From a virus, in IMG/VR virus record IMGVR_UViG_3300007640_003853, positions 1-30,234 of that record: a stretch of DNA of 30,234 bases, one strand, 5' to 3'. Under the pieces are notes generated by a model. It was not told where the DNA came from. It did not search any database and saw nothing but the letters and a program-made list of their open reading frames with translations. Position numbers and translations under genes: made by a program. Positions 3,845 through 12,999 of this stretch are shown here, in pieces (the first letter of the stretch is position 1; the number at the start of each line of letters is the position of its first letter).

Positions 3845-4829
3845 ACTGAACGCTCCTCTGGAGATCCGCGAACTGGAACTTACACCATTGAAAATTGGTC
3901 AAGTTCTGGTAAAGGTTCTCACCAGTGGGATTTGTGGTGCTCAGTTGCATGAGATAAAAGGACATAAGGGAAACGCGAAGTTTCTCCCACACCTGATGGG
4001 ACATGAGGGATGTGGCATTGTGGAAGAAGTTGGACCTGGTGTGACCACAGTGAAACCAGGAGACAAGGTGGTGATGCATTGGAGGGTTGGGAGTGGCATT
4101 GAGTCTGCTTTCCCCAATTACATTTTGGATGGAAAGACCATCAGCAGTGGAAAGGTCACCACACTGCAAGAGATGTCCATTGTGAGTGAGAACAGACTGA
4201 CTGTTATTCCACAAAACACTCCCACTGTTCTGGCAGCAATGCTGGGTTGTTCAATGACAACAGCACTGGGCATTATTGATAATGAGTGTGATCTAAAGTT
4301 TGGCGAGAGAGTTGCAGTTATTGGCTGTGGTGGAGTGGGTCTAAACCTCATTCAGGGTGCCTTTCTAAGGGGTGCTGCTGAGGTTGTGGGTGTGGACATC
4401 AACGATAAAATGCACGCACTCTCTTGTCTGGTGGGTGCTGACAGGTTTGTTTCTTCCATTCGTGATGTGATGGAGACTTATGATGTCATCATCGACACCA
4501 CTGGACATCCAGAGGTTATTGGACAGGCTTTCAGGAAACTGGCACCCAGTGGTCGTCTTATTTTGGTGGGACAACCTCGTCCTGGAATGTCTCTTTACAT
4601 TCCTAATGCTCTGTCGATGTTTGATGGAGAAGGCAAGGTGGTTCGTGCCACACAAGGAGGAAGAACTAACCCCACAAAAGACATCCCTCGTTACATTGAC
4701 TTGGCGATGAAAGGTGTGTTAGAATTTGAAGAATTACACACTGACACTTTCTCTTTAGAAGAGATCAATCAGGCTTTTGATTATCTAAAGTCTGGAAACG
4801 CTGGAAGAATTATGGTAAAGATAAACTAA
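3822..4829 (+). CDS. Zinc-type alcohol dehydrogenase family (MDR) protein
   Basis: 335 residues. The N-terminal GroES-like domain carries SGICGAQ with the catalytic Cys near residue 38 and the GHEGCGIVEEVG signature near 65. The Rossmann part has VIGCGGVGLN (about 164-173). The four-Cys structural zinc loop normally following the GHE motif is absent: that stretch reads as MHWRVGSGIESAF. It should be an NAD(P)-dependent dehydrogenase for a polyol or sugar. Pairing with an SDR and split transketolase recalls sugar-phosphate gene sets of capsule clusters, where such MDR enzymes reduce pentulose phosphates, but the substrate cannot be told here. Confidence 0.85.
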   Translation: MKGALLTKLNAPLEIRELELTPLKIGQVLVKVLTSGICGAQLHEIKGHKGNAKFLPHLMGHEGCGIVEEVGPGVTTVKPGDKVVMHWRVGSGIESAFPNYILDGKTISSGKVTTLQEMSIVSENRLTVIPQNTPTVLAAMLGCSMTTALGIIDNECDLKFGERVAVIGCGGVGLNLIQGAFLRGAAEVVGVDINDKMHALSCLVGADRFVSSIRDVMETYDVIIDTTGHPEVIGQAFRKLAPSGRLILVGQPRPGMSLYIPNALSMFDGEGKVVRATQGGRTNPTKDIPRYIDLAMKGVLEFEELHTDTFSLEEINQAFDYLKSGNAGRIMVKIN

Positions 4830-5557
4830 TGTTTTTAGACGAAAGATCAAAACAACTCAGGCGAGACGCCATTGACCTAAGTCTCGCCAATGGTGGTTAT
4901 CATTATGGTGGAACCTTCAGCACTGCTGAGATTCTAAAGCACCTGTTTGATGACATCATGGGAGAGAAAGACAGATTTATTCTCTCCAAAGGTCATGGGT
5001 GTTGGATTTATTATGTTCTCCTTCGTGAGCAAGGATTTGATCCTGTTCTGGAAGGACATCCTGAGTTTGATCCTCACAATGGGATCTTCTGCACTGCTGG
5101 AAGCATGGGCCATGGGTTACCCACGGCTCTTGGTCAAGCACAGGCACGGAAATTGAAGGGTCAGGAAGGAAAGGTGTTTGTTCTCATTGGAGATGGTGAA
5201 GCACAGGAAGGAACCACATGGGAATCCATTTTGATTGGTGGTCATCTGAGGTTGGATAATCTTGTGGTTATCATGGACTCCAATAACATTCAAGGTTCTG
5301 GTTATGTGAATGACATCATGCCAGTGAAAACCCCTCTCATGGGTGCTGCTAATCTGGCAGGGTGGAGTGTTGTTGAACTTTATGGACATGATGAATCTCT
5401 AACCGAGGTTGATTTTGACAAACAGAAAAGACCCATGCTTATTGTTGCCAACACCGTAAAAGGTGCTGGTGTTTCCTTTATGGAGAACAAGCCCAAGTGG
5501 CATTCTAACTGGTTAGGTGGTGAAGAACTGAAACAAGCAAGGGAGGAACTGAAGTGA
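4829..5557 (+). CDS. Transketolase, N-terminal (thiamine diphosphate-binding) subunit
   Basis: 242 residues, equal to the PP domain of transketolase. Visible are SKGH (53-56), TAGSMGHGLPTALG (about 89-102), and the thiamine diphosphate/Mg motif from GDG (121-123) to NN (152-153). The stop overlaps the GTG start of the second half, so the subunits would be made together and form the active site at their interface. Transketolase moves a two-carbon unit between sugar phosphates and makes sedoheptulose 7-phosphate, the substrate of GmhA encoded downstream (known biochemistry; the link is inference). Split pairs are also common in bacterial glycan clusters with other ketol substrates. Confidence 0.9.
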   Translation: MFLDERSKQLRRDAIDLSLANGGYHYGGTFSTAEILKHLFDDIMGEKDRFILSKGHGCWIYYVLLREQGFDPVLEGHPEFDPHNGIFCTAGSMGHGLPTALGQAQARKLKGQEGKVFVLIGDGEAQEGTTWESILIGGHLRLDNLVVIMDSNNIQGSGYVNDIMPVKTPLMGAANLAGWSVVELYGHDESLTEVDFDKQKRPMLIVANTVKGAGVSFMENKPKWHSNWLGGEELKQAREELK

Positions 5558-6036
5558 GAAAGGCATTCGGGGAGACCCTGATGAAATTGGCAGATAAGGA
5601 TGACAAGATTGTCCTTCTGACTGGAGATGTGGAACAAGAGATGGTTCCTTTCAAGGAAAAGTTTCCTGACAGGTTCTTCAATCTGGGTTTGACAGAACAA
5701 ACCATTACAGGAATGGCGGCTGGAATGGCCATTGAGGGGCTGAGGCCCATTGTTTATTCCATCACTCCATTTGTGTTAGAGAGACCTTATGAACAGGTAA
5801 AGATTGACATTGATCAACAGAACCTTCCAGTGATGTTGATTGGTTATTCTGATTACCCCACACATGGTCCGACACACAGACCCCTGAACCCAGAGAGATT
5901 GGTAAGAGTGTTTAAGAACATTCATTCTTTCTTTCCACATGACAGTGGGGCAGCAACAAAATCAATGTTGGATGCTTATTTAATGAAGGTTCCGTCAATG
6001 ATTTTCCTCCACAAAGACGGTTTGCCTTTTATCTAA
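5554..6036 (+). CDS. Transketolase, C-terminal (pyrimidine-binding) subunit, short
   Basis: 160 residues starting at GTG, which overlaps the TGA of the N-terminal subunit. It matches the Pyr domain: LLTGDVE, then GLTEQ (45-49) with the catalytic Glu (E48) that activates the thiamine ring, then GMAAGMAIEGLRPIV. It ends soon after the Pyr domain, so the third transketolase domain (about 120 residues, no catalytic residues in classical enzymes) is missing. The deletion need not abolish activity but may change dimerisation or substrate choice. It directly follows its partner and precedes a methyltransferase. Confidence 0.88.
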   Translation: MRKAFGETLMKLADKDDKIVLLTGDVEQEMVPFKEKFPDRFFNLGLTEQTITGMAAGMAIEGLRPIVYSITPFVLERPYEQVKIDIDQQNLPVMLIGYSDYPTHGPTHRPLNPERLVRVFKNIHSFFPHDSGAATKSMLDAYLMKVPSMIFLHKDGLPFI

Positions 6037-6806
6037 TGTTAGATTCAATCAAGATTTACGACACCGAACACACTAAAGAAAGAGTCGGAAGTAAGAAGGA
6101 TGGTGGTTATGTTGTCCTGAATGAGATCTCCAAAGACACACAAGTTCTTTTGTCTTATGGTGTGGAGGACAACACCAGTTTTGAGAATGATTTCACTCAC
6201 AAGTTTGGGTGTGTTGCTCATCTGTTTGATCACACCATTGATGGATTAGATCCTAATTCTGACAGCAAGAGATTTACATTCCATAAGGAAGGCATCTCTC
6301 ATGTGAAGACAAAGGATTGTGACACTCTGATGACACACCTCTCAAAGTTTGGCAACAGAGACCATGTAACACTCAAGATGGATGTGGAGTGGTGCGAATG
6401 GGCTGTGTTTGAAACCTTTCCTGAGGATTATCTTGACTTCTTTGATCAGATTCTCTGTGAGTTTCATCTAATTCCAATGGATTATAAGGGCGGTCATTCT
6501 CCTTACTTCACAAAGTTTCATTCCAGAGTTTATGATGAGATTAATAATTTACTCATGAAACGTTATGCTGGAGTGATGCATAAACTCCAGAGACATTTTT
6601 ATGTGTTTCATGCCCATTGTAATAATTCTTTGCCATGTAATGTGGTGAATGGTGCTGATGTTCCACCTCTTCTGGAATTGAGTTTGGTTCGCAAGGACCT
6701 TGTAAAGAATCCTAAACTCGCCACTGGACCTTGGCCCGATCCTGTGTTAGACTATCCAAATAAAGGGGATAGACCCGACATTACACACCTCCATTGGAAC
6801 CAATGA
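6036..6806 (+). CDS. Methyltransferase, Methyltransf_22/METTL24-like
   Basis: 256 residues. The N-terminal KERVGSKKDGGYVVLNE followed by LLSYGVEDNTSFENDF is the characteristic start of the Methyltransf_22 family (METTL24-like; related to FkbM enzymes), with HLFDHTIDGL as the acidic ribose-binding strand and LKMDVEWCEW (about 114-123) as the motif equivalent to KxDVEG. The likely reaction is SAM-dependent methylation of a sugar hydroxyl; the acceptor is unknown. It overlaps the transketolase stop by one base (TAATG) and couples to the kinase through ATGA. Confidence 0.7.
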   Translation: MLDSIKIYDTEHTKERVGSKKDGGYVVLNEISKDTQVLLSYGVEDNTSFENDFTHKFGCVAHLFDHTIDGLDPNSDSKRFTFHKEGISHVKTKDCDTLMTHLSKFGNRDHVTLKMDVEWCEWAVFETFPEDYLDFFDQILCEFHLIPMDYKGGHSPYFTKFHSRVYDEINNLLMKRYAGVMHKLQRHFYVFHAHCNNSLPCNVVNGADVPPLLELSLVRKDLVKNPKLATGPWPDPVLDYPNKGDRPDITHLHWNQ

Positions 6807-7549
6807 CCAAGAACATCCTTGTTATCGGAGACAGCTGTCGCGACCAGTACACTTATTGTCACGCCGACCGATTGGCGCCAGATAAACCAGTGCCTGTTCT
6901 TGAGGTTCATGGGTTGGATATGGTGCCGGGAATGGCGAAGAACGTGTTCAATAACCTTCAAAGGTTGAAACCAGGTAACAAGATTATTACCAATTCCAAC
7001 TGGAAGGAGATTGTAAAGAATCGTTATGTGGATGAGAAGAGCAACCACATGTTCTTCCGTGTGGATAGTTCTGAATCTCCAGAACCAATCAATCTAAATT
7101 CTGTTCTGGAGATTATTACTGAATATAACTATGTGATAATCTCTGATTATGATAAAGGTTTTCTCTCTGAAGAAGACATTTCAATCATTTGTGCTTCACA
7201 TCCTAATGTCTTTCTAGATACCAAGAAGGTTCTTGGGGACTGGGCTCTTGATGCTCGTTACATTAAGATCAACCAACATGAAGCAGACAGGAGTCGTCAG
7301 TGGATTCAGAGTGTCGATCGTGACATCATTGAAACCAGAGGAGCAGCGGGTGCTGTTTATAAGAACCGAATTTATCCAGTGAAGAAGAAGGTGGATGTTC
7401 TCGATGTGTCGGGTGCGGGTGATGCCTTTCTTGCTGGATTGGTAATGAAGTTTGCGGAGGAGAAGAACATTCACTCTGCCATAAACTTCGCCAATCGATG
7501 TGCTTCCTCCGTGGTTCAGCATCGTGGAACAACATTAATTGACTTATGA
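6803..7549 (+). CDS. hldE-N: PfkB-family kinase, HldE/RfaE N-terminal type (heptose 7-phosphate kinase)
   Basis: 248 residues from ATG 6803 (ATGA overlap with the previous stop; the in-frame TTG 6794 is less likely). The N-terminus (LVIGDSCRDQYTY, then RLAPDKPVPVLEV) follows the start of E. coli HldE. IISDYDKGFLSEEDI matches its LSDYAKG segment, and VLDVSGAGDAFLAGL is the PfkB signature with the catalytic Asp of GAGD. HldE phosphorylates D-glycero-D-manno-heptose 7-phosphate at C1. It is shorter than the E. coli kinase domain (about 318 residues), and the nucleotidyltransferase half is a separate gene two loci downstream. Confidence 0.82.
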   Translation: MTKNILVIGDSCRDQYTYCHADRLAPDKPVPVLEVHGLDMVPGMAKNVFNNLQRLKPGNKIITNSNWKEIVKNRYVDEKSNHMFFRVDSSESPEPINLNSVLEIITEYNYVIISDYDKGFLSEEDISIICASHPNVFLDTKKVLGDWALDARYIKINQHEADRSRQWIQSVDRDIIETRGAAGAVYKNRIYPVKKKVDVLDVSGAGDAFLAGLVMKFAEEKNIHSAINFANRCASSVVQHRGTTLIDL

Positions 7550-8355
7550 ATATTCTCCTTACGGGATCAGACGGATTTATCGGAAGAAACTTCACCAAAA
7601 CACTCTCGGCCATGGGACACACTCTTGTGTGTGTGGAGAAGGATGAGTGTTGGGAGTTCATGGATAACTTTAGAGATTGGCCTGATGTTGATTTGGTTCT
7701 TCATCAGGGAGCAATCTCTAACACAACAGAGAGAAACATTCGCAAACTCTTTGATAATAATGTTGACTTCACGCTCAGTCTGTTTGAGACTGCAATGAAG
7801 TTTTCAATTCCTGTAAAGTTTGCATCCTCTGCGAGTGTTTATGGGAACCTTATGACTGAGGTAAATCCTCTTAACCATTATGCCATGTCTAAACTTATGG
7901 TGGACATGTGGATTGAGGATAACAAGAATAACTTTCCTCTCATTCAATCCTTTAGGTACTTCAATGTGTATGGGGAAGGTGAGGAGTTCAAGGTCACACA
8001 AGGACAGGCATCTCCCATCTCCACCTTTGTGGATCAGGTAAGAAGAACAGGAACAGTTACATTGTTTGAGGGTTCTGAGAACTTCCACAGAGATTTTGTA
8101 TGTGTTCGTGATGTGGTATCCTTAGTGTTGAATAACGATAAGGGCTCTGGTGTCTGGGACTTGGGAACAGGGAAACCAATTTCTTTCCAGACAGTTGGAG
8201 ACTTGATATCATCCAAATATAATGCTAAGATAAGGGTAGTAAAGTTTCCAGAACATCTGAGAGATAAGTATCAGATTTACACCAAAGCAAAGCCACATTT
8301 CCCAAATTACAACTTCATCACAGTGGAAGATTATGTCGAAAATTGTTTGGACTAA
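7546..8355 (+). CDS. hldD: ADP-L-glycero-D-manno-heptose 6-epimerase (HldD/RfaD family)
   Basis: 269 residues, NAD(P)-dependent extended-SDR fold. TGSDGFIG (6-13) binds the cofactor and YAMSK provides Y112 and K116. Assignment to HldD rather than general GalE rests on three diagnostic stretches: HQGAISNTTE (53-62; E. coli has HEGACSSTTE), LFEGSENFHRDF (173-184) and GTGKPISFQTVGD. HldD inverts C6 of ADP-heptose, the last step of ADP-L-glycero-D-manno-heptose synthesis. It is about 40 residues shorter than the E. coli enzyme. ATGA overlap ties it to the kinase, and the transferase half of HldE follows. Confidence 0.88.
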   Translation: MNILLTGSDGFIGRNFTKTLSAMGHTLVCVEKDECWEFMDNFRDWPDVDLVLHQGAISNTTERNIRKLFDNNVDFTLSLFETAMKFSIPVKFASSASVYGNLMTEVNPLNHYAMSKLMVDMWIEDNKNNFPLIQSFRYFNVYGEGEEFKVTQGQASPISTFVDQVRRTGTVTLFEGSENFHRDFVCVRDVVSLVLNNDKGSGVWDLGTGKPISFQTVGDLISSKYNAKIRVVKFPEHLRDKYQIYTKAKPHFPNYNFITVEDYVENCLD

Positions 8356-8360
8356 TATGT

Positions 8361-8366
8361 TATAAT
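8361..8366 (+). promoter_or_regulatory. Putative -10 box (TATAAT) ahead of the nucleotidyltransferase gene
   Basis: A perfect TATAAT preceded by TATGT lies in the only gap (24 bases) of the heptose operon. No convincing -35 box is visible, and transcription would start only about 7 bases before the ATG at 8380. It may be an internal early/middle promoter giving a nearly leaderless message. Confidence 0.4.
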
Positions 8367-8379
8367 GTGGAGATGAATT

Positions 8380-8808
8380 ATGTCTAAATTAGTATTTTTG
8401 TCAGGTGTGTTCGATCTCGTTCATCCAGGACACATAGAGCTACTAAAAGTATCAAAATCTCTCACAATGGGAGGACAATTAGTGGTTGGTTTGGATTATG
8501 ATGAGAAGGTAAGGAAAGACAAAGGTGTTGAGCGACCAATAAATACTTGGCAAGACAGGAAAGTTCTTTTGGAATCCATCAGATATGTGGATGTTGTTGT
8601 TGGATTTGGAACAAAAGAGGGACTGGAAAATCTTATAGAATTCTACAAACCAGACATTCTTATAGACGGAGGCGACTGGAGGGAACATGAGGGAGTTGGT
8701 AGATCTTTTGCGAAGGAAGTTAGATTCTTTGATCGGATCGGCGGATATTCCTCCACAGGAATCATTGAAAAGATTGGGAGGATATATGACAAATTTGGGA
8801 GCGTCTGA
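8380..8808 (+). CDS. hldE-C: Nucleotidyltransferase, HldE/RfaE C-terminal type
   Basis: 142 residues matching the cytidylyltransferase-fold half of HldE. It has GVFDLVHPGHIELL with the HxGH motif intact (15-18), VGLDYDEKVRKDKG followed by RPIN, DGGDW and a final GGYSSTGIIEKI, equivalent to the STTxxI motif that closes the active site. The predicted reaction is transfer of AMP to heptose 1-phosphate to form ADP-heptose. E. coli joins kinase and transferase in one chain; here they are two genes separated by hldD. The gene starts after a 24-base gap holding a TATAAT box. Confidence 0.85.
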   Translation: MSKLVFLSGVFDLVHPGHIELLKVSKSLTMGGQLVVGLDYDEKVRKDKGVERPINTWQDRKVLLESIRYVDVVVGFGTKEGLENLIEFYKPDILIDGGDWREHEGVGRSFAKEVRFFDRIGGYSSTGIIEKIGRIYDKFGSV

Positions 8809-9154
8809 TCCTGTTGTTTGGGTCCCTAAGGGATGGGGTGGTGAGACGATTGTAGTTAATTCTAATGAGTATTGTGGTAAGATACTTCACTTTGTAAAGG
8901 GACATCGATGCTCATGGCATTACCACGAGATTAAAGATGAAACTTTTTATGTGTATAAGGGTGCCATTGAATTGACTTACGGTGAAACAGATGACATCAC
9001 AGATGCAACAACAGTTGTGTTGGCTGAGGGTGATAAGTTTCACATCACTAGAGGACTGAGGCATCAGATGTATGCCCTGTTGAACACTGAGTTGTTAGAG
9101 TTCAGTACTCGTCATTATGATGAAGATAGTCACCGGGTGGAGAAAGGAGATTGA
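8786..9154 (+). CDS. Cupin-domain protein
   Basis: 122 residues from ATG 8786, preceded by GGGAGGAT; an in-frame start 33 codons upstream is unlikely because it would overlap the preceding gene by over 100 bases. A single cupin: CSWHYHEIKDETFYV (about 42-56) supplies two His and a Glu, and GLRHQM the last His of the metal site. Small cupins of this look are sugar-phosphate isomerases, sugar-nucleotide keto-isomerases or the C-terminal half of type II mannose-6-phosphate isomerases. Between heptose genes, a sugar isomerase or epimerase is the best guess; the reaction is not determined. Confidence 0.75.
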   Translation: MTNLGASDPVVWVPKGWGGETIVVNSNEYCGKILHFVKGHRCSWHYHEIKDETFYVYKGAIELTYGETDDITDATTVVLAEGDKFHITRGLRHQMYALLNTELLEFSTRHYDEDSHRVEKGD

Positions 9155-10095
9155 TTATTGCATCATGCCCGTTGAGGGTTTCATTATTTGGTGGTTCGAC
9201 TGATAATCCGTTATTTGTTGAAACTTATGGTCATGGATCTGTAATCTCATTTACATGTAGTCTTAGAACCTACGTTACCATTAGTCAAGATAAGATTGGA
9301 AGAAATCACAATCACAAGTACATCATTAACTATTCTCGCCGTGAAGAAGTTTCTTCTATAGATGAGATTGACAATGAGGTAGTGAGAGTTGTTCTTCAAC
9401 ATTTTGACATGCCACCAGTTCATGTCACACTCACCAGCGATGCGTTTTCACAAGGGAGTGGATTGGCATCATCCTCTTCCTATCTGATTAGCCTCATCAA
9501 GGCATGTCTAATCTTCAAAGGAAAGGCGATGACTGATGTGGAGATTTGTCGCCTTGCTTATGGGTTGGAGTTGCAGTTTAACCCCTACTGTGGATATCAG
9601 GATCCATTTGGATGTGGTGTGGGTGGATTCAAGAAGATTGATTTTTATGGAATCAATAAGATCACTTATGAGTTTCTTTCCACTGAATTATTTTATGAGT
9701 TTGACACTCATTTAATTTTCACTGGAATCACAAGAAACTCCAAGACAATTCTGAAGAAGGTGAGTGGCAATCTGGAGAAGGTGAAACCACTTCTAAAGAA
9801 TGTGGATCATGCTTATGACGCTTTGAGTGGGCGTGACTTCAGAGGTGTGATGAATGAGATGAATAAGTCCTGGAAACAGAAGAAGAAAACAAGTTCATCC
9901 ATTACAGAGAACCCAGTTATTCAAGAGATGGATAAAGAACTCTCACAGAATAAGACAGTTCTTTCTCATAAGTTATGTGGAGCAGGGAATGGAGGCTTCT
10001 TTCTCACCTTCTCCAAACAAGGAACCTTGAATGTTCCTTATGATTGTGTTAGTATTGATGTAACAGCGTCTGGAGTTTATGGCAAATCCGTTTAG
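9151..10095 (+). CDS. hddA: GHMP kinase, D-glycero-D-manno-heptose 7-phosphate kinase (HddA type)
   Basis: 314 residues from a TTG start that overlaps the cupin stop (TTGA). CPLRVSLFGGSTD (6-18) is the HddA-type N-terminus, and SQGSGLASSSS (100-110) is the GHMP ATP-binding loop; a third motif (KLCGAGNGGFFLTF) lies near the end. HddA phosphorylates heptose 7-phosphate to the alpha-1,7-bisphosphate in the GDP-heptose route, whereas the PfkB kinase at 6803 would make the beta anomer. A single operon holding both is unusual. It overlaps gmhA by 17 bases. Confidence 0.85.
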   Translation: MIIASCPLRVSLFGGSTDNPLFVETYGHGSVISFTCSLRTYVTISQDKIGRNHNHKYIINYSRREEVSSIDEIDNEVVRVVLQHFDMPPVHVTLTSDAFSQGSGLASSSSYLISLIKACLIFKGKAMTDVEICRLAYGLELQFNPYCGYQDPFGCGVGGFKKIDFYGINKITYEFLSTELFYEFDTHLIFTGITRNSKTILKKVSGNLEKVKPLLKNVDHAYDALSGRDFRGVMNEMNKSWKQKKKTSSSITENPVIQEMDKELSQNKTVLSHKLCGAGNGGFFLTFSKQGTLNVPYDCVSIDVTASGVYGKSV

Positions 10096-10585
10096 ACCTT
10101 ACATAAGAGCATTGGAATCTGCTCATATGGAGGAGGAGTTCCTGAAGTTCAAAGGGGCATTTGATAATCACAAGAGAATTATTGTTCTGGGTAATGGAGG
10201 AAGCAATGCTGTGGCTTCTCACATCTCTCAAGATTACATGAAGTTTCATAATAAGAAAGTTTCCCTGTTCTCAGATCCATCCATGCTTACCATGATGGCA
10301 AATGATTATGGTTATGAGAATGCCTACAGAAAGTTTCTTGAGTATCATGCAGAACCTGATACCCTGGTAGTTCTCATTAGTTCCAGTGGTGAATCTGAGA
10401 ACATCATTGCGTGTCAGAAGTTCTGTGATGATAATGAGATTTCCTATGGTGTTCTGACTGGGTTCAGTTCTGAGAACAGATTGAGAACCAGATCAAAGAA
10501 AGCACTCTTCAATTACTACATTGACAGTGAGTCATATGGTGTGGTAGAATGTGTTCATCAAGTGTTTCTTCATGGGGTTATATGA
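10079..10585 (+). CDS. gmhA: Sedoheptulose 7-phosphate isomerase (GmhA, SIS domain)
   Basis: 168 residues, a single SIS domain. GNGGSNAVASHISQD (38-52) and SSSGESENI (101-109) are the sugar-phosphate loops of GmhA-type enzymes. It converts sedoheptulose 7-phosphate to D-glycero-D-manno-heptose 7-phosphate, the first committed step of both heptose-nucleotide routes. It is slightly shorter than the E. coli enzyme (192). It overlaps hddA and, by ATGA, the HAD fusion gene. The split transketolase upstream could make its substrate. Confidence 0.88.
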   Translation: MANPFRPYIRALESAHMEEEFLKFKGAFDNHKRIIVLGNGGSNAVASHISQDYMKFHNKKVSLFSDPSMLTMMANDYGYENAYRKFLEYHAEPDTLVVLISSSGESENIIACQKFCDDNEISYGVLTGFSSENRLRTRSKKALFNYYIDSESYGVVECVHQVFLHGVI

Positions 10586-11316
10586 GATATTGTTTTGATT
10601 TGGATGGAACCATCTGTAAGACCCCATTGAATGAGAATGGAAAACCTGATTATTTAAAGTCTGTTCCCATTCCCATCGTGGTGAACCAACTCAAAAAGCT
10701 TCGCGAAGAAGGCCATTACATTATTATTCAGACTGCCAGAGGAAGATCTTCTGGAATTGATTGGACAGAATGGACTGAACAACAACTGGAAAAGTGGAAA
10801 GTTCCTTATGATGATCTGGAACCAATGTTCCATAAACCCAATGCTGATTTTTTTATTGATGATAAGGGAGTGGATGTTTCAGATTGGTTGAAGTTGAGAC
10901 CACTGAAGAAAGGGATTGTCGCTGGTGCTTTTGATTTGATTCATCCTGGTTATATTAGGATGTTTAACCATGCAAAGCAATATTGTAATTACTTAGTGGT
11001 GGCACTTCATGAAAACCCAACATCTGAAAGGAGTTGGAAGATGTCACCAGTTCAATCGGTTGAGGATAGAGTTGAGATTCTTCTTGCTTTATCTGATGTG
11101 GATGAGGTCCTTGTTTATAAAGAGGAAAATCAGTTCCTTGATCATCTTGCCAGTGGTGAATATGAAATAAGATTTCTAGGAGAGGATTATTCAGATGGAA
11201 GTTACACTGGCAAGGAGATTGGAGTTCCCATTGTTTGGGTTCCAAGAAACCACGGGTACTCAACCACAAAATTGAAAGGTAGAATCTATCAACAATATGG
11301 AGAGCTTGGAACATGA
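10582..11316 (+). CDS. HAD-family phosphatase fused to a nucleotidyltransferase-like domain
   Basis: 244 residues from ATG 10582 (ATGA overlap with gmhA). Residues 1-104 are a HAD phosphatase: DLDGT (6-10) with D6 and D8, QTARG, and HKPNADFFIDDK (84-95) with the metal Asp pair. Residues 108-244 follow the cytidylyltransferase fold (GIVAGAFDLIHPGY... and GYSTTKLKGRI), but the HxGH catalytic motif reads HPGY (121-124), with the second His replaced by Tyr. The HAD half could do the GmhB job (removing the C7 phosphate), though it lacks the Cys zinc site of true GmhB. The second domain may be altered in chemistry or inactive. Confidence 0.75.
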   Translation: MRYCFDLDGTICKTPLNENGKPDYLKSVPIPIVVNQLKKLREEGHYIIIQTARGRSSGIDWTEWTEQQLEKWKVPYDDLEPMFHKPNADFFIDDKGVDVSDWLKLRPLKKGIVAGAFDLIHPGYIRMFNHAKQYCNYLVVALHENPTSERSWKMSPVQSVEDRVEILLALSDVDEVLVYKEENQFLDHLASGEYEIRFLGEDYSDGSYTGKEIGVPIVWVPRNHGYSTTKLKGRIYQQYGELGT

Positions 11317-12203
11317 AGTGTCTTGTAACCGGTGCTGCGGGTTTTATTGGATCCAATCTGGTTGATTACCTGATTGATAAAAACGCAATGGTCGTTGCTG
11401 TTGATAACATGTCTGCCAATAATGAAAAGTTTTATTGGAATGAGTCGGGAACTACAAAGGTAGTAGACATTACAGACTATGAAAGAATGCGTCCTCTGTT
11501 CGATGGTGTGGACTATGTGTTTCACCTGGCAGCAGAGAGCCGTCTTCAACCTGCCATTGAGAATCCCATCAATGCTGTGAAACAGAACAGCCTGGGAACC
11601 ACTGTGGTTCTTCAGTGTGCCAGAGAGGCGGGTGTGAAGAGAGTGATTTATTCCTCCACTTCATCCTGTTATGGTGGCAACCCTTGGCCAAATCATGAAG
11701 AACAGCCTAATGATTGCCTGAACCCTTACTCTGCATCTAAATTGTCTGGTGAGATCTTCTGTAAAATGTACTGGGACCTTTATGGTTTGGAGACAGTGTC
11801 TCTAAGGTACTTCAATGTGTTTGGAGAAAGGTCTCCAAAGAAAGGACAATATGCTCCAGTCATCGGTATCTTCCAACGACAGAAGAAGGAAGGACAGGAT
11901 CTAACCATTGTTGGGGATGGTTCTCAACGGAGAGACTTTGTTCATGTTAAGGACGTTGCCAGAGCCAATTATCTATCAGCCATCATGCCACTACTGGGAC
12001 ATGAAGGTGAAGTGTTTAATGTTGGAAGTGGAAAGAACTATTCCATCAAGGAACTGGCTGATGCCATTTCAAGTCATCATACTCATCTGCCAGAAAGAAA
12101 AGGGGAAGCAGAAACAACTCTGGCAAAGATAGATAAAATGAATGAAGTTATTGGATGGAAACCTGAAATTGATGTGATGGAGTGGATTAATGGACAGAGA
12201 TAA
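11313..12203 (+). CDS. NAD-dependent sugar epimerase/dehydratase, GalE-like
   Basis: 296 residues, extended SDR. TGAAGFIGSN (6-15) binds NAD, VFHLAAESR lies at 69-77, SSTSSCYGG includes the catalytic Ser/Thr, and NPYSASK gives Y139 and K143. The C-terminal FVHVKDVA and VFNVGSGKNYSIKEL fit UDP-hexose or UDP-HexNAc 4-epimerases of the WbpP/GalE type. It would provide a nucleotide sugar for the glycosyltransferases on either side. It starts by ATGA overlap and overlaps the GT25 gene by 14 bases. Exact substrate unknown. Confidence 0.82.
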   Translation: MKCLVTGAAGFIGSNLVDYLIDKNAMVVAVDNMSANNEKFYWNESGTTKVVDITDYERMRPLFDGVDYVFHLAAESRLQPAIENPINAVKQNSLGTTVVLQCAREAGVKRVIYSSTSSCYGGNPWPNHEEQPNDCLNPYSASKLSGEIFCKMYWDLYGLETVSLRYFNVFGERSPKKGQYAPVIGIFQRQKKEGQDLTIVGDGSQRRDFVHVKDVARANYLSAIMPLLGHEGEVFNVGSGKNYSIKELADAISSHHTHLPERKGEAETTLAKIDKMNEVIGWKPEIDVMEWINGQR

Positions 12204-12999
12204 GAACAAGTCAGCACACAAACTGAAAGGAATTGGACCCATCTACTGTATCAACCTGGACGATCAACCAGAGAGATGGGAGTGGATGGAAGACCAGTTT
12301 AAGTACTGGGAGATTGAGAATTACACTCGCGTCTCTGCTTATGATGGCAGAGATGATGACCTGAGTGACATTCTCAAGGGACGTTATCCAGACATGATGT
12401 CATCTGGTGAGATTGGATGTGTTACCTCACACCTTAAGGCAATCAAGCAATTTTATGATAGTGGTGAACCTTATGCCATAATGATGGAAGATGATTGTAA
12501 CCTAGATGTTGTGAGGTTCTGGAACTTCACATGGAGAGATTTCTACTCTAAGATTCCTTATGATTGGGATGTGGTTCAAGTCGCAGTGATTGCCACTGGG
12601 GATGTTCATATTCGAATTCATAAGAGGTTTGTGAATGAGTTCTCCACCGCTTGTTATCTTATCACTCGACACCACGCAGAGAAGATGATTCGTCTTCATT
12701 GTCGTGGGGATAAGTACAAACTGGATAATGGAGTGAGACCGCGCCCAGTAGCGGATGATCTTCTCTACAACTCAGGTAATACTTATTCCATACCTCTTCT
12801 GCTTTATAAGCTAGAATTGGGATCCTCCATTCACCCAGAACACATTGAGGTGTTTCATAAAGGAAATTATGAGGCACAACTTAACTACTGGATGAATATG
12901 GGAGCACAAAAAGGAATCGATGAACTTATGAATTTCGATCCTTATTTGGGACGTGTGGTTGAATCATCACAAACCCCACCACCAGAGACCTATTCCTAA
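12190..12999 (+). CDS. Glycosyltransferase family 25 (LPS-biosynthesis type)
   Basis: 269 residues. IYCINLDDQPERWEWM (18-33) is the GT25 opening motif, SGEIGCVTSHLKAI (72-85) the conserved acceptor-side stretch, and MMEDDC (98-103) the acidic metal/donor motif. GT25 enzymes add galactose or similar sugars to LPS or to protein hydroxylysine; in a phage the acceptor could be host LPS or a virion protein. It is the last gene of the glycan operon, and a late-promoter-like box overlaps its stop. Confidence 0.85.
   Translation: MDRDKNKSAHKLKGIGPIYCINLDDQPERWEWMEDQFKYWEIENYTRVSAYDGRDDDLSDILKGRYPDMMSSGEIGCVTSHLKAIKQFYDSGEPYAIMMEDDCNLDVVRFWNFTWRDFYSKIPYDWDVVQVAVIATGDVHIRIHKRFVNEFSTACYLITRHHAEKMIRLHCRGDKYKLDNGVRPRPVADDLLYNSGNTYSIPLLLYKLELGSSIHPEHIEVFHKGNYEAQLNYWMNMGAQKGIDELMNFDPYLGRVVESSQTPPPETYS

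Follow-up and report, generated by a model that had tools for sequence, protein, structure and literature searches.

Two putative nucleotide-heptose cassettes united in one cyanophage operon

The virus record IMGVR_UViG_3300007640_003853 of IMG/VR, analysed here over its whole length of 30,234 bases (the window), carries in its left 13 kb a cluster of sugar genes on the + strand, and positions 6803-11316 of that cluster form an operon of predicted heptose enzymes. The right half holds T4-like genes (thymidylate synthase, PhoH, helicase loader, single-strand-binding protein, baseplate and tail tube), and in a DNA search most matches of the window are to phages of Synechococcus and Prochlorococcus, at ~75-78% over short stretches; it is therefore a fragment of a cyanomyovirus with no closely related isolate. 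The operon encodes an HldA-like PfkB kinase, HldD, an HldE-type nucleotidyltransferase (NT1), a cupin, an HddA-like GHMP kinase, GmhA, and an HAD phosphatase with a second nucleotidyltransferase, NT2 (Table 1). Its frames are intact and adjacent genes overlap by 1 to 23 bases, with a sole gap of 24 bases before NT1, so that the genes look translationally coupled. All six enzymes named in the initial annotation lie in open + strand frames as it placed them, with heptose enzymes as the best families of PfkB, HldD, NT1, HddA and GmhA, and the two kinds of heptose kinase it described are indeed encoded together in one coupled operon. It had missed the fusion of NT2 to the HAD phosphatase, the cupin gene between NT1 and HddA, and two transketolase-like genes just upstream, at 4829-6036.

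Table 1. Sugar-cluster features of the window, with the basis of each assignment
Feature	Position	Strand	Basis
Transketolase-like N (thiamine pyrophosphate, TPP) subunit, TktN	4829..5557	+	Pfam Transketolase_N 4.5e-28
Transketolase-like pyrimidine-binding subunit, TktC	5554..6036	+	Pfam Transket_pyr 3e-22
Cassette A HldA-like PfkB sugar kinase	6803..7549	+	TIGR02198 119 bits; PfkB fold, GAGD motif
Cassette A HldD-like ADP-heptose 6-epimerase, a short-chain dehydrogenase/reductase (SDR)	7546..8355	+	TIGR02197 192 bits
Cassette A HldE-C/HldC-type nucleotidyltransferase NT1 (HPGH)	8380..8808	+	TIGR02199 (HldE-C) 103 bits
Cassette A metal-type cupin, candidate sugar-phosphate isomerase	about 8786..9154	+	open reading frame (ORF) opens at 8687, second ATG likely start
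Cassette B HddA-like GHMP kinase, TTG start	9151..10095	+	NF049969 93 bits (best family)
Cassette B GmhA-like SIS isomerase	10079..10585	+	best NCBIfam GmhA, 52-57 bits (TIGR00441 52); PDB profile search
EcbF/BcbF-like HAD phosphatase domain; N-terminal half of fusion	10582..10908 (end approximate)	+	TIGR01689 27 bits; PDB 9iqw
Cassette B NT2 nucleotidyltransferase, with HPGY instead of HxGH; C-terminal half of HAD fusion	10909..11316	+	TIGR02199 57 bits, TagD 51 bits
Cassette B GalE-like SDR (SDR2)	11313..12203	+	galE TIGR01179 156 bits; directly after NT2 in 59 of 60 loci with flanking sequence
GT25-family glycosyltransferase, common to cassette A and B contexts	12190..12999	+	Pfam Glyco_transf_25 5.5e-13; phrog_2835 421 bits

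The two kinases of the window belong to two cassettes, A and B, that are usually found apart. This arrangement is not chance, because dozens of other virus contigs show these orders of genes again; cassette B also lies in a few Prochlorococcus chromosomes. Cassette B loci were collected by searching with HAD·NT2 and cassette A loci by searching with PfkB, and the counts are not de-replicated. Loci found through PfkB show PfkB, NT1, the cupin and an HAD, often with HldD, and all 60 cassette B loci with enough flanking sequence keep the order HddA-GmhA-[HAD]-NT2, with SDR2 following HAD·NT2 in 59. Loci with cassette A only (n = 51) hold the cupin in 45 cases and GmhA in none, whereas those with cassette B only (n = 69) hold GmhA in 68 and the cupin in five; four of these five lie on contigs that end early, and the fifth, SynMITS9220M01, has its cupin from another gene set. 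Both the cupin and GmhA are present in all ten loci that carry both cassettes. In whole-record searches, GmhA was absent from six complete cassette A phage genomes (P-TIM68, S-SM2, P-SSM2, S-SSM7, Sf-FS3 and S-CAM1), and an HldA-type PfkB from SynMITS9220M01 and three cassette B contigs of 110-236 kb.

Locus L113 has the layout of the window minus HddA, GmhA, NT2 and SDR2 and carries a stand-alone HAD, and the fusion holds the one HAD found in each of the seven other complete hybrids. The hybrids do not form one clade on the HddA tree, which shows five label changes, at least two of them forced by strongly supported branches; on the strength of this tree, the cassettes appear to have been joined in phages more than once, with the HAD and the GT25 glycosyltransferase common to both. 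A contig binned as Acidimicrobiaceae (L096) also has the phage hybrid gene order and is likely a misbinned cyanophage fragment.

The steps of cassette B are linked by the fusions of NT2, which is joined to HAD in phages, to an HddA-like kinase in the huge phage LR756511 (L005, 458 amino acids), and to a GmhA-like isomerase in L098 (310 amino acids), a contig binned as Pacearchaeota in an archaeal metagenome-assembled genome. An NCBIfam scan confirmed these domain assignments. Three different fusions thus tie isomerase, kinase, phosphatase and nucleotidyltransferase together, and the four probably form one pathway.

Each of PfkB, HldD, HddA and GmhA has a heptose enzyme as both its best family and its best PDB match. 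For PfkB, the next family outside the HldE models is ribokinase at 45 bits, and HldA also comes first in a search against solved structures. The protein has a PfkB fold with a GAGD motif, conserved across 85 relatives, and is closest to HldA. In the predicted structure (pLDDT 96), the top seven Foldseek matches are all HldA (2.5e-19; the kinase that follows them reaches 1.6e-13), and the comparison with HldA gives a Z score of 26.4 and a root-mean-square deviation of 2.3 over 242 aligned residues. The phage protein is ~60 residues shorter than HldA, a short form typical of its phage relatives; since the model of this short form is closest to HldA, the deletion is predicted to leave the kinase core in place. 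For HldD, the next unrelated SDR scores 58 bits, the four PDB sequences nearest to it are heptose 6-epimerases without exception (1eq2, 4.8e-34), Y112, K116 and K149 are conserved in 34 of 34 relatives, and its alignment shares long stretches with the E. coli epimerase. NT1 carries HPGH as its HxGH motif, a motif that most of its relatives have, and H18 is conserved in all 56 of them.

In cassette B, the top PDB matches of the HddA-like protein (3k85, 4n3o and 4usk) are HddA/WcbL-type kinases, 4usk being a putative sugar kinase, and its GHMP motifs are conserved across 64 relatives. Phosphoheptose isomerases make up 13 of the 15 matches, and the 13 best, in the PDB profile search with GmhA (5by2, 7e-23), and the residues at its metal-ligand positions, H48, D52, E157 and H165, are each 100% conserved in 70 relatives. 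The HAD domain, whose motifs DxDGT, T, K and DD are near-invariant in 119 relatives, is the only HAD found in the cluster and is presumed to serve both cassettes. Against solved structures, the HAD·NT2 protein matches TagD and a capsule phosphatase, and HPGY is the motif in all 76 relatives of NT2. Active-site motifs are thus retained and near-invariant across 34-119 relatives, with two substitutions among the GmhA ligands and HPGY in NT2.

From this evidence we favour, with moderate confidence, the interpretation that the operon comprises two nucleotide-heptose cassettes united in one cyanophage and feeding a glycan-modifying gene cluster. In cassette B, the GmhA-like isomerase would convert sedoheptulose 7-phosphate, a Calvin-cycle sugar, to heptose 7-phosphate; the HddA-like kinase would add a phosphate at C1, the HAD domain would strip that at C7, and NT2, fused to the HAD, would attach the nucleotide, after which SDR2 may modify the product. 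Cassette A would follow an ADP-heptose-like route through the HldA-like kinase, the shared HAD, NT1 and epimerisation by HldD, with its isomerase step supplied by the GmhA of cassette B, by a host GmhA or, less surely, by the cupin. Glycosyltransferases would then place the heptoses on a host surface glycan or on the virion. A signalling or DNA-related sugar, which the initial annotation had also raised, found no support in this analysis. We further entertain, tentatively and with more doubt than confidence, that cassette B, which is largely viral, represents an undescribed third way to a nucleotide-heptose, passing the product of an alpha-type HddA kinase to an HldE/TagD-fold nucleotidyltransferase that has Tyr for the second catalytic His and is joined, depending on the lineage, to isomerase, kinase or phosphatase, and that the cupin of cassette A replaces GmhA as isomerase.

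The cupin has an invariant site, H45-x-H47-x2-K50-x-E52...H93, and a confident model (pLDDT 95). Its top Foldseek match is D-lyxose isomerase (4.9e-8), with CapF and KdgF scoring about equally and phosphomannose isomerase also close, and its match to Pfam Lyx_isomer is weak. A role as sugar-phosphate isomerase is plausible, though we lean against it; the hybrids, with both cupin and GmhA, count against it. As a plain substitute for GmhA, the cupin is retained merely as a possibility, because all ten hybrid loci hold both.

Several observations weigh against the two-cassette heptose interpretation. All the enzymes score below the curated NCBIfam equivalog cut-offs (209 bits for TIGR00441, 600 for NF049969, 345 for TIGR02198, 181.5 for TIGR02199 and 274.6 for TIGR02197), and we therefore infer, rather than assign, their substrates, anomers and nucleotides, as we do the destination of the sugar. 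Canonical GmhA binds its metal through H61, E65, Q172 and H180, and in the phage protein D and E replace E65 and Q172, two conservative substitutions. The HAD is EcbF/BcbF-like, not GmhB-like. The scores of NT2 for TagD and HldE-C are almost equal, and NT2 lacks the second His of HxGH, a residue normally catalytic in the nucleotidyltransferase family. Four of the seven other complete hybrids have no HldD-like gene in the stretch covered.

The best-surviving alternative concerns destination: the heptose may decorate the virion, for example the tail fibres, and not the host surface. Cassette A adjoins neck or tail-fibre genes in P-SSM2 (L008), S-SSM7, S-CAM1 and Sf-FS3 (L010), with 2-oxoglutarate (2OG)-oxygenase genes nearby in P-SSM2 and Sf-FS3, and these neighbours in loci L008-L011 are suggestive of virion glycosylation. 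However, the cassette lies in a cluster like those for lipopolysaccharide (LPS) in the window, P-TIM68 and S-SM2, and the cassette B of Prochlorococcus lies in polysaccharide loci, so that we regard the virion as a rather doubtful destination.

A second alternative is that the enzymes have drifted from heptose substrates and the cassettes make other activated sugars, such as a pentose, an octose or a glycerol derivative. It would account for the scores below the cut-offs and the near-tie of NT2 between TagD and HldE-C, for a cupin fold nearest to hexose and pentose isomerases, and for the adjoining transketolase, SDR and alcohol dehydrogenase genes; but four enzymes independently match heptose enzymes best, and the long stretches that HldD keeps in common with the E. 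coli epimerase also make this drift unlikely.

Less likely still, both kinases could act redundantly on the same heptose 7-phosphate in one pathway, giving alpha and beta anomers for a single glycan, as one coupled operon with one GmhA and one HAD might imply. Yet the two kinases seldom share a phage, each is accompanied by a nucleotidyltransferase of its own, and the scatter of the hybrids on the HddA tree also speaks against this scheme, which we reject as the principal explanation because the cassettes separate cleanly. Where the initial annotation left a choice between two products and a mixed pathway, two products fit better, the cassettes being usually apart; what is mixed is that a kinase of HddA type is paired with a nucleotidyltransferase of HldE/TagD fold. 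Finally, that the genes have no function and serve as filler in headful packaging, stated by Sullivan et al. 2010 as an open alternative for cyanophage LPS genes of the same gene set (PMC3037559), is extremely improbable, because median pairwise dN/dS (the ratio of nonsynonymous to synonymous change, by Nei-Gojobori, with sequence pairs that are not independent) is 0.10-0.16 for all nine of PfkB, NT1, cupin, HldD, HddA, GmhA, HAD, NT2 and SDR2, the frames are intact, and the catalytic motifs are near-invariant. The cassette genes are under purifying selection, which argues against "stuffer DNA".

Cassette B is not exclusively viral, an idea we rejected on the evidence of host chromosomes. The full HAD·NT2 fusion is present in five of 300 genomes of the Prochlorococcus family. 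A genome scan gave five loci, three of them on Prochlorococcus chromosomal contigs, where they adjoin ilvC-like and clpP-like genes and lie near a sugar transferase and glycosyltransferases (neighbour names read from protein starts, not from a family search); L215 and L216 are further chromosomal copies. L094, L095, L097 and L215 share one chromosomal site, with the ilvC/clpP-like neighbours, and L216 occupies a different one, all with HddA-GmhA-HAD·NT2-SDR2. On the HddA tree, the host copies group in a single clade nested within the viral sequences. The cassette A kinase is present in two of the 300 genomes. GmhA-like genes, some of them weak matches, were found in 38 of 151 Prochlorococcus-family genomes at E 0.001, and phages with only cassette A therefore cannot rely on a host isomerase. 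Three host-family genomes (L212-L214) encode HAD·SIS fusion proteins of ~300 amino acids beside what reads as a NeuB-type synthase; these probably belong to another, sugar-acid pathway, and because of that neighbour we set them aside as support for the pathway.

TktN, upstream of the operon in the window, lies beside PfkB in L113, L109, L115 and L119 and, as a neighbour of cassette A, is a possible source of sedoheptulose 7-phosphate. The transketolase of the window is split into two genes without the C-terminal domain, and a DNA search of phages for the pair gave no match. An alcohol dehydrogenase gene also neighbours the cassettes in the window; in L018, L031 and L099, an unassigned ORF of ~400 amino acids fills the place of the transketolase, between the alcohol dehydrogenase and PfkB. 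The sugar cluster also includes a peptide deformylase gene (1770-2207), present too in the hybrids L015, L018 and L020 and in L108.

The initial annotation held that bacteria normally take one route or the other, ADP or GDP. This premise is wrong for C. jejuni, where the two coexist and the GDP route relies on the GmhB encoded in the gene cluster of the ADP route (PMC10680097), a precedent for two routes sharing one phosphatase. Cassette B resembles the C. jejuni capsule genes in its adjacent GmhA-like isomerase and HddA-like GHMP kinase and in its four-step logic. The difference lies in nucleotide transfer: the described GDP route uses HddC (PMC10680097), whereas the HddA-type kinase here is paired with an HPGY, HldE/TagD-fold NT2 fused to an EcbF/BcbF-like phosphatase. 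No HddC match was found among the window cluster proteins scanned with NCBIfam; since the record is a fragment, HddC may lie elsewhere in the genome. Cassette A resembles the ADP-heptose route in its HldA-like PfkB, HldE-C-like NT1 and HldD-like epimerase; it differs in that the kinase and the nucleotidyltransferase have a gene each, PfkB is shortened, the cassette usually has a cupin and no GmhA, and the HAD is not of GmhB type.

Heptose genes in cyanophages were already known. Viral heptose biosynthetic enzymes making ADP-heptose in vitro are attributed to Tang et al. (Science 2024) in PMC11573728, and NT1 and NT2 differ in lacking the STTR5 motif described there. For SynMITS9220M01, heptose-related LPS genes were listed in 2020 (PMC7378029); its cassette B matches that of the window at 67, 71 and 59% identity, but it has no cassette A kinase and its HAD·NT2 was left hypothetical. 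A second set in the same phage (L003:11388-13391) has no GmhA of its own; it comprises a cupin of the cassette A type, an HddA-like kinase scoring 287 bits, and a sugar-1-phosphate nucleotidyltransferase whose best match is Arch_glmU (62 bits, with HddC at 60). Cassette A itself is the gene set of the LPS clusters T4-GC 304-308 noted in 2010 in P-SSM2, S-SM2 and S-SSM7 (Sullivan et al., PMC3037559), where its function was left open and to which the window adds cassette B. The question raised then, whether cyanophage LPS-type genes are functional or filler, becomes testable, with purifying selection set against filler and the fusions naming pathway steps. PMC4515613 describes the LPS of the marine cyanobacterial host group as without heptose, in agreement with the initial annotation; should a nucleotide-heptose be the product, the phages would add a sugar absent from described cyanobacterial LPS, which could alter the surface of the host, or the virion, in the course of infection. 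New here are the two-cassette structure, the fusions of NT2 and its HPGY motif, the way cupin and GmhA are distributed over the loci, the copies in host chromosomes and the estimate of selection.

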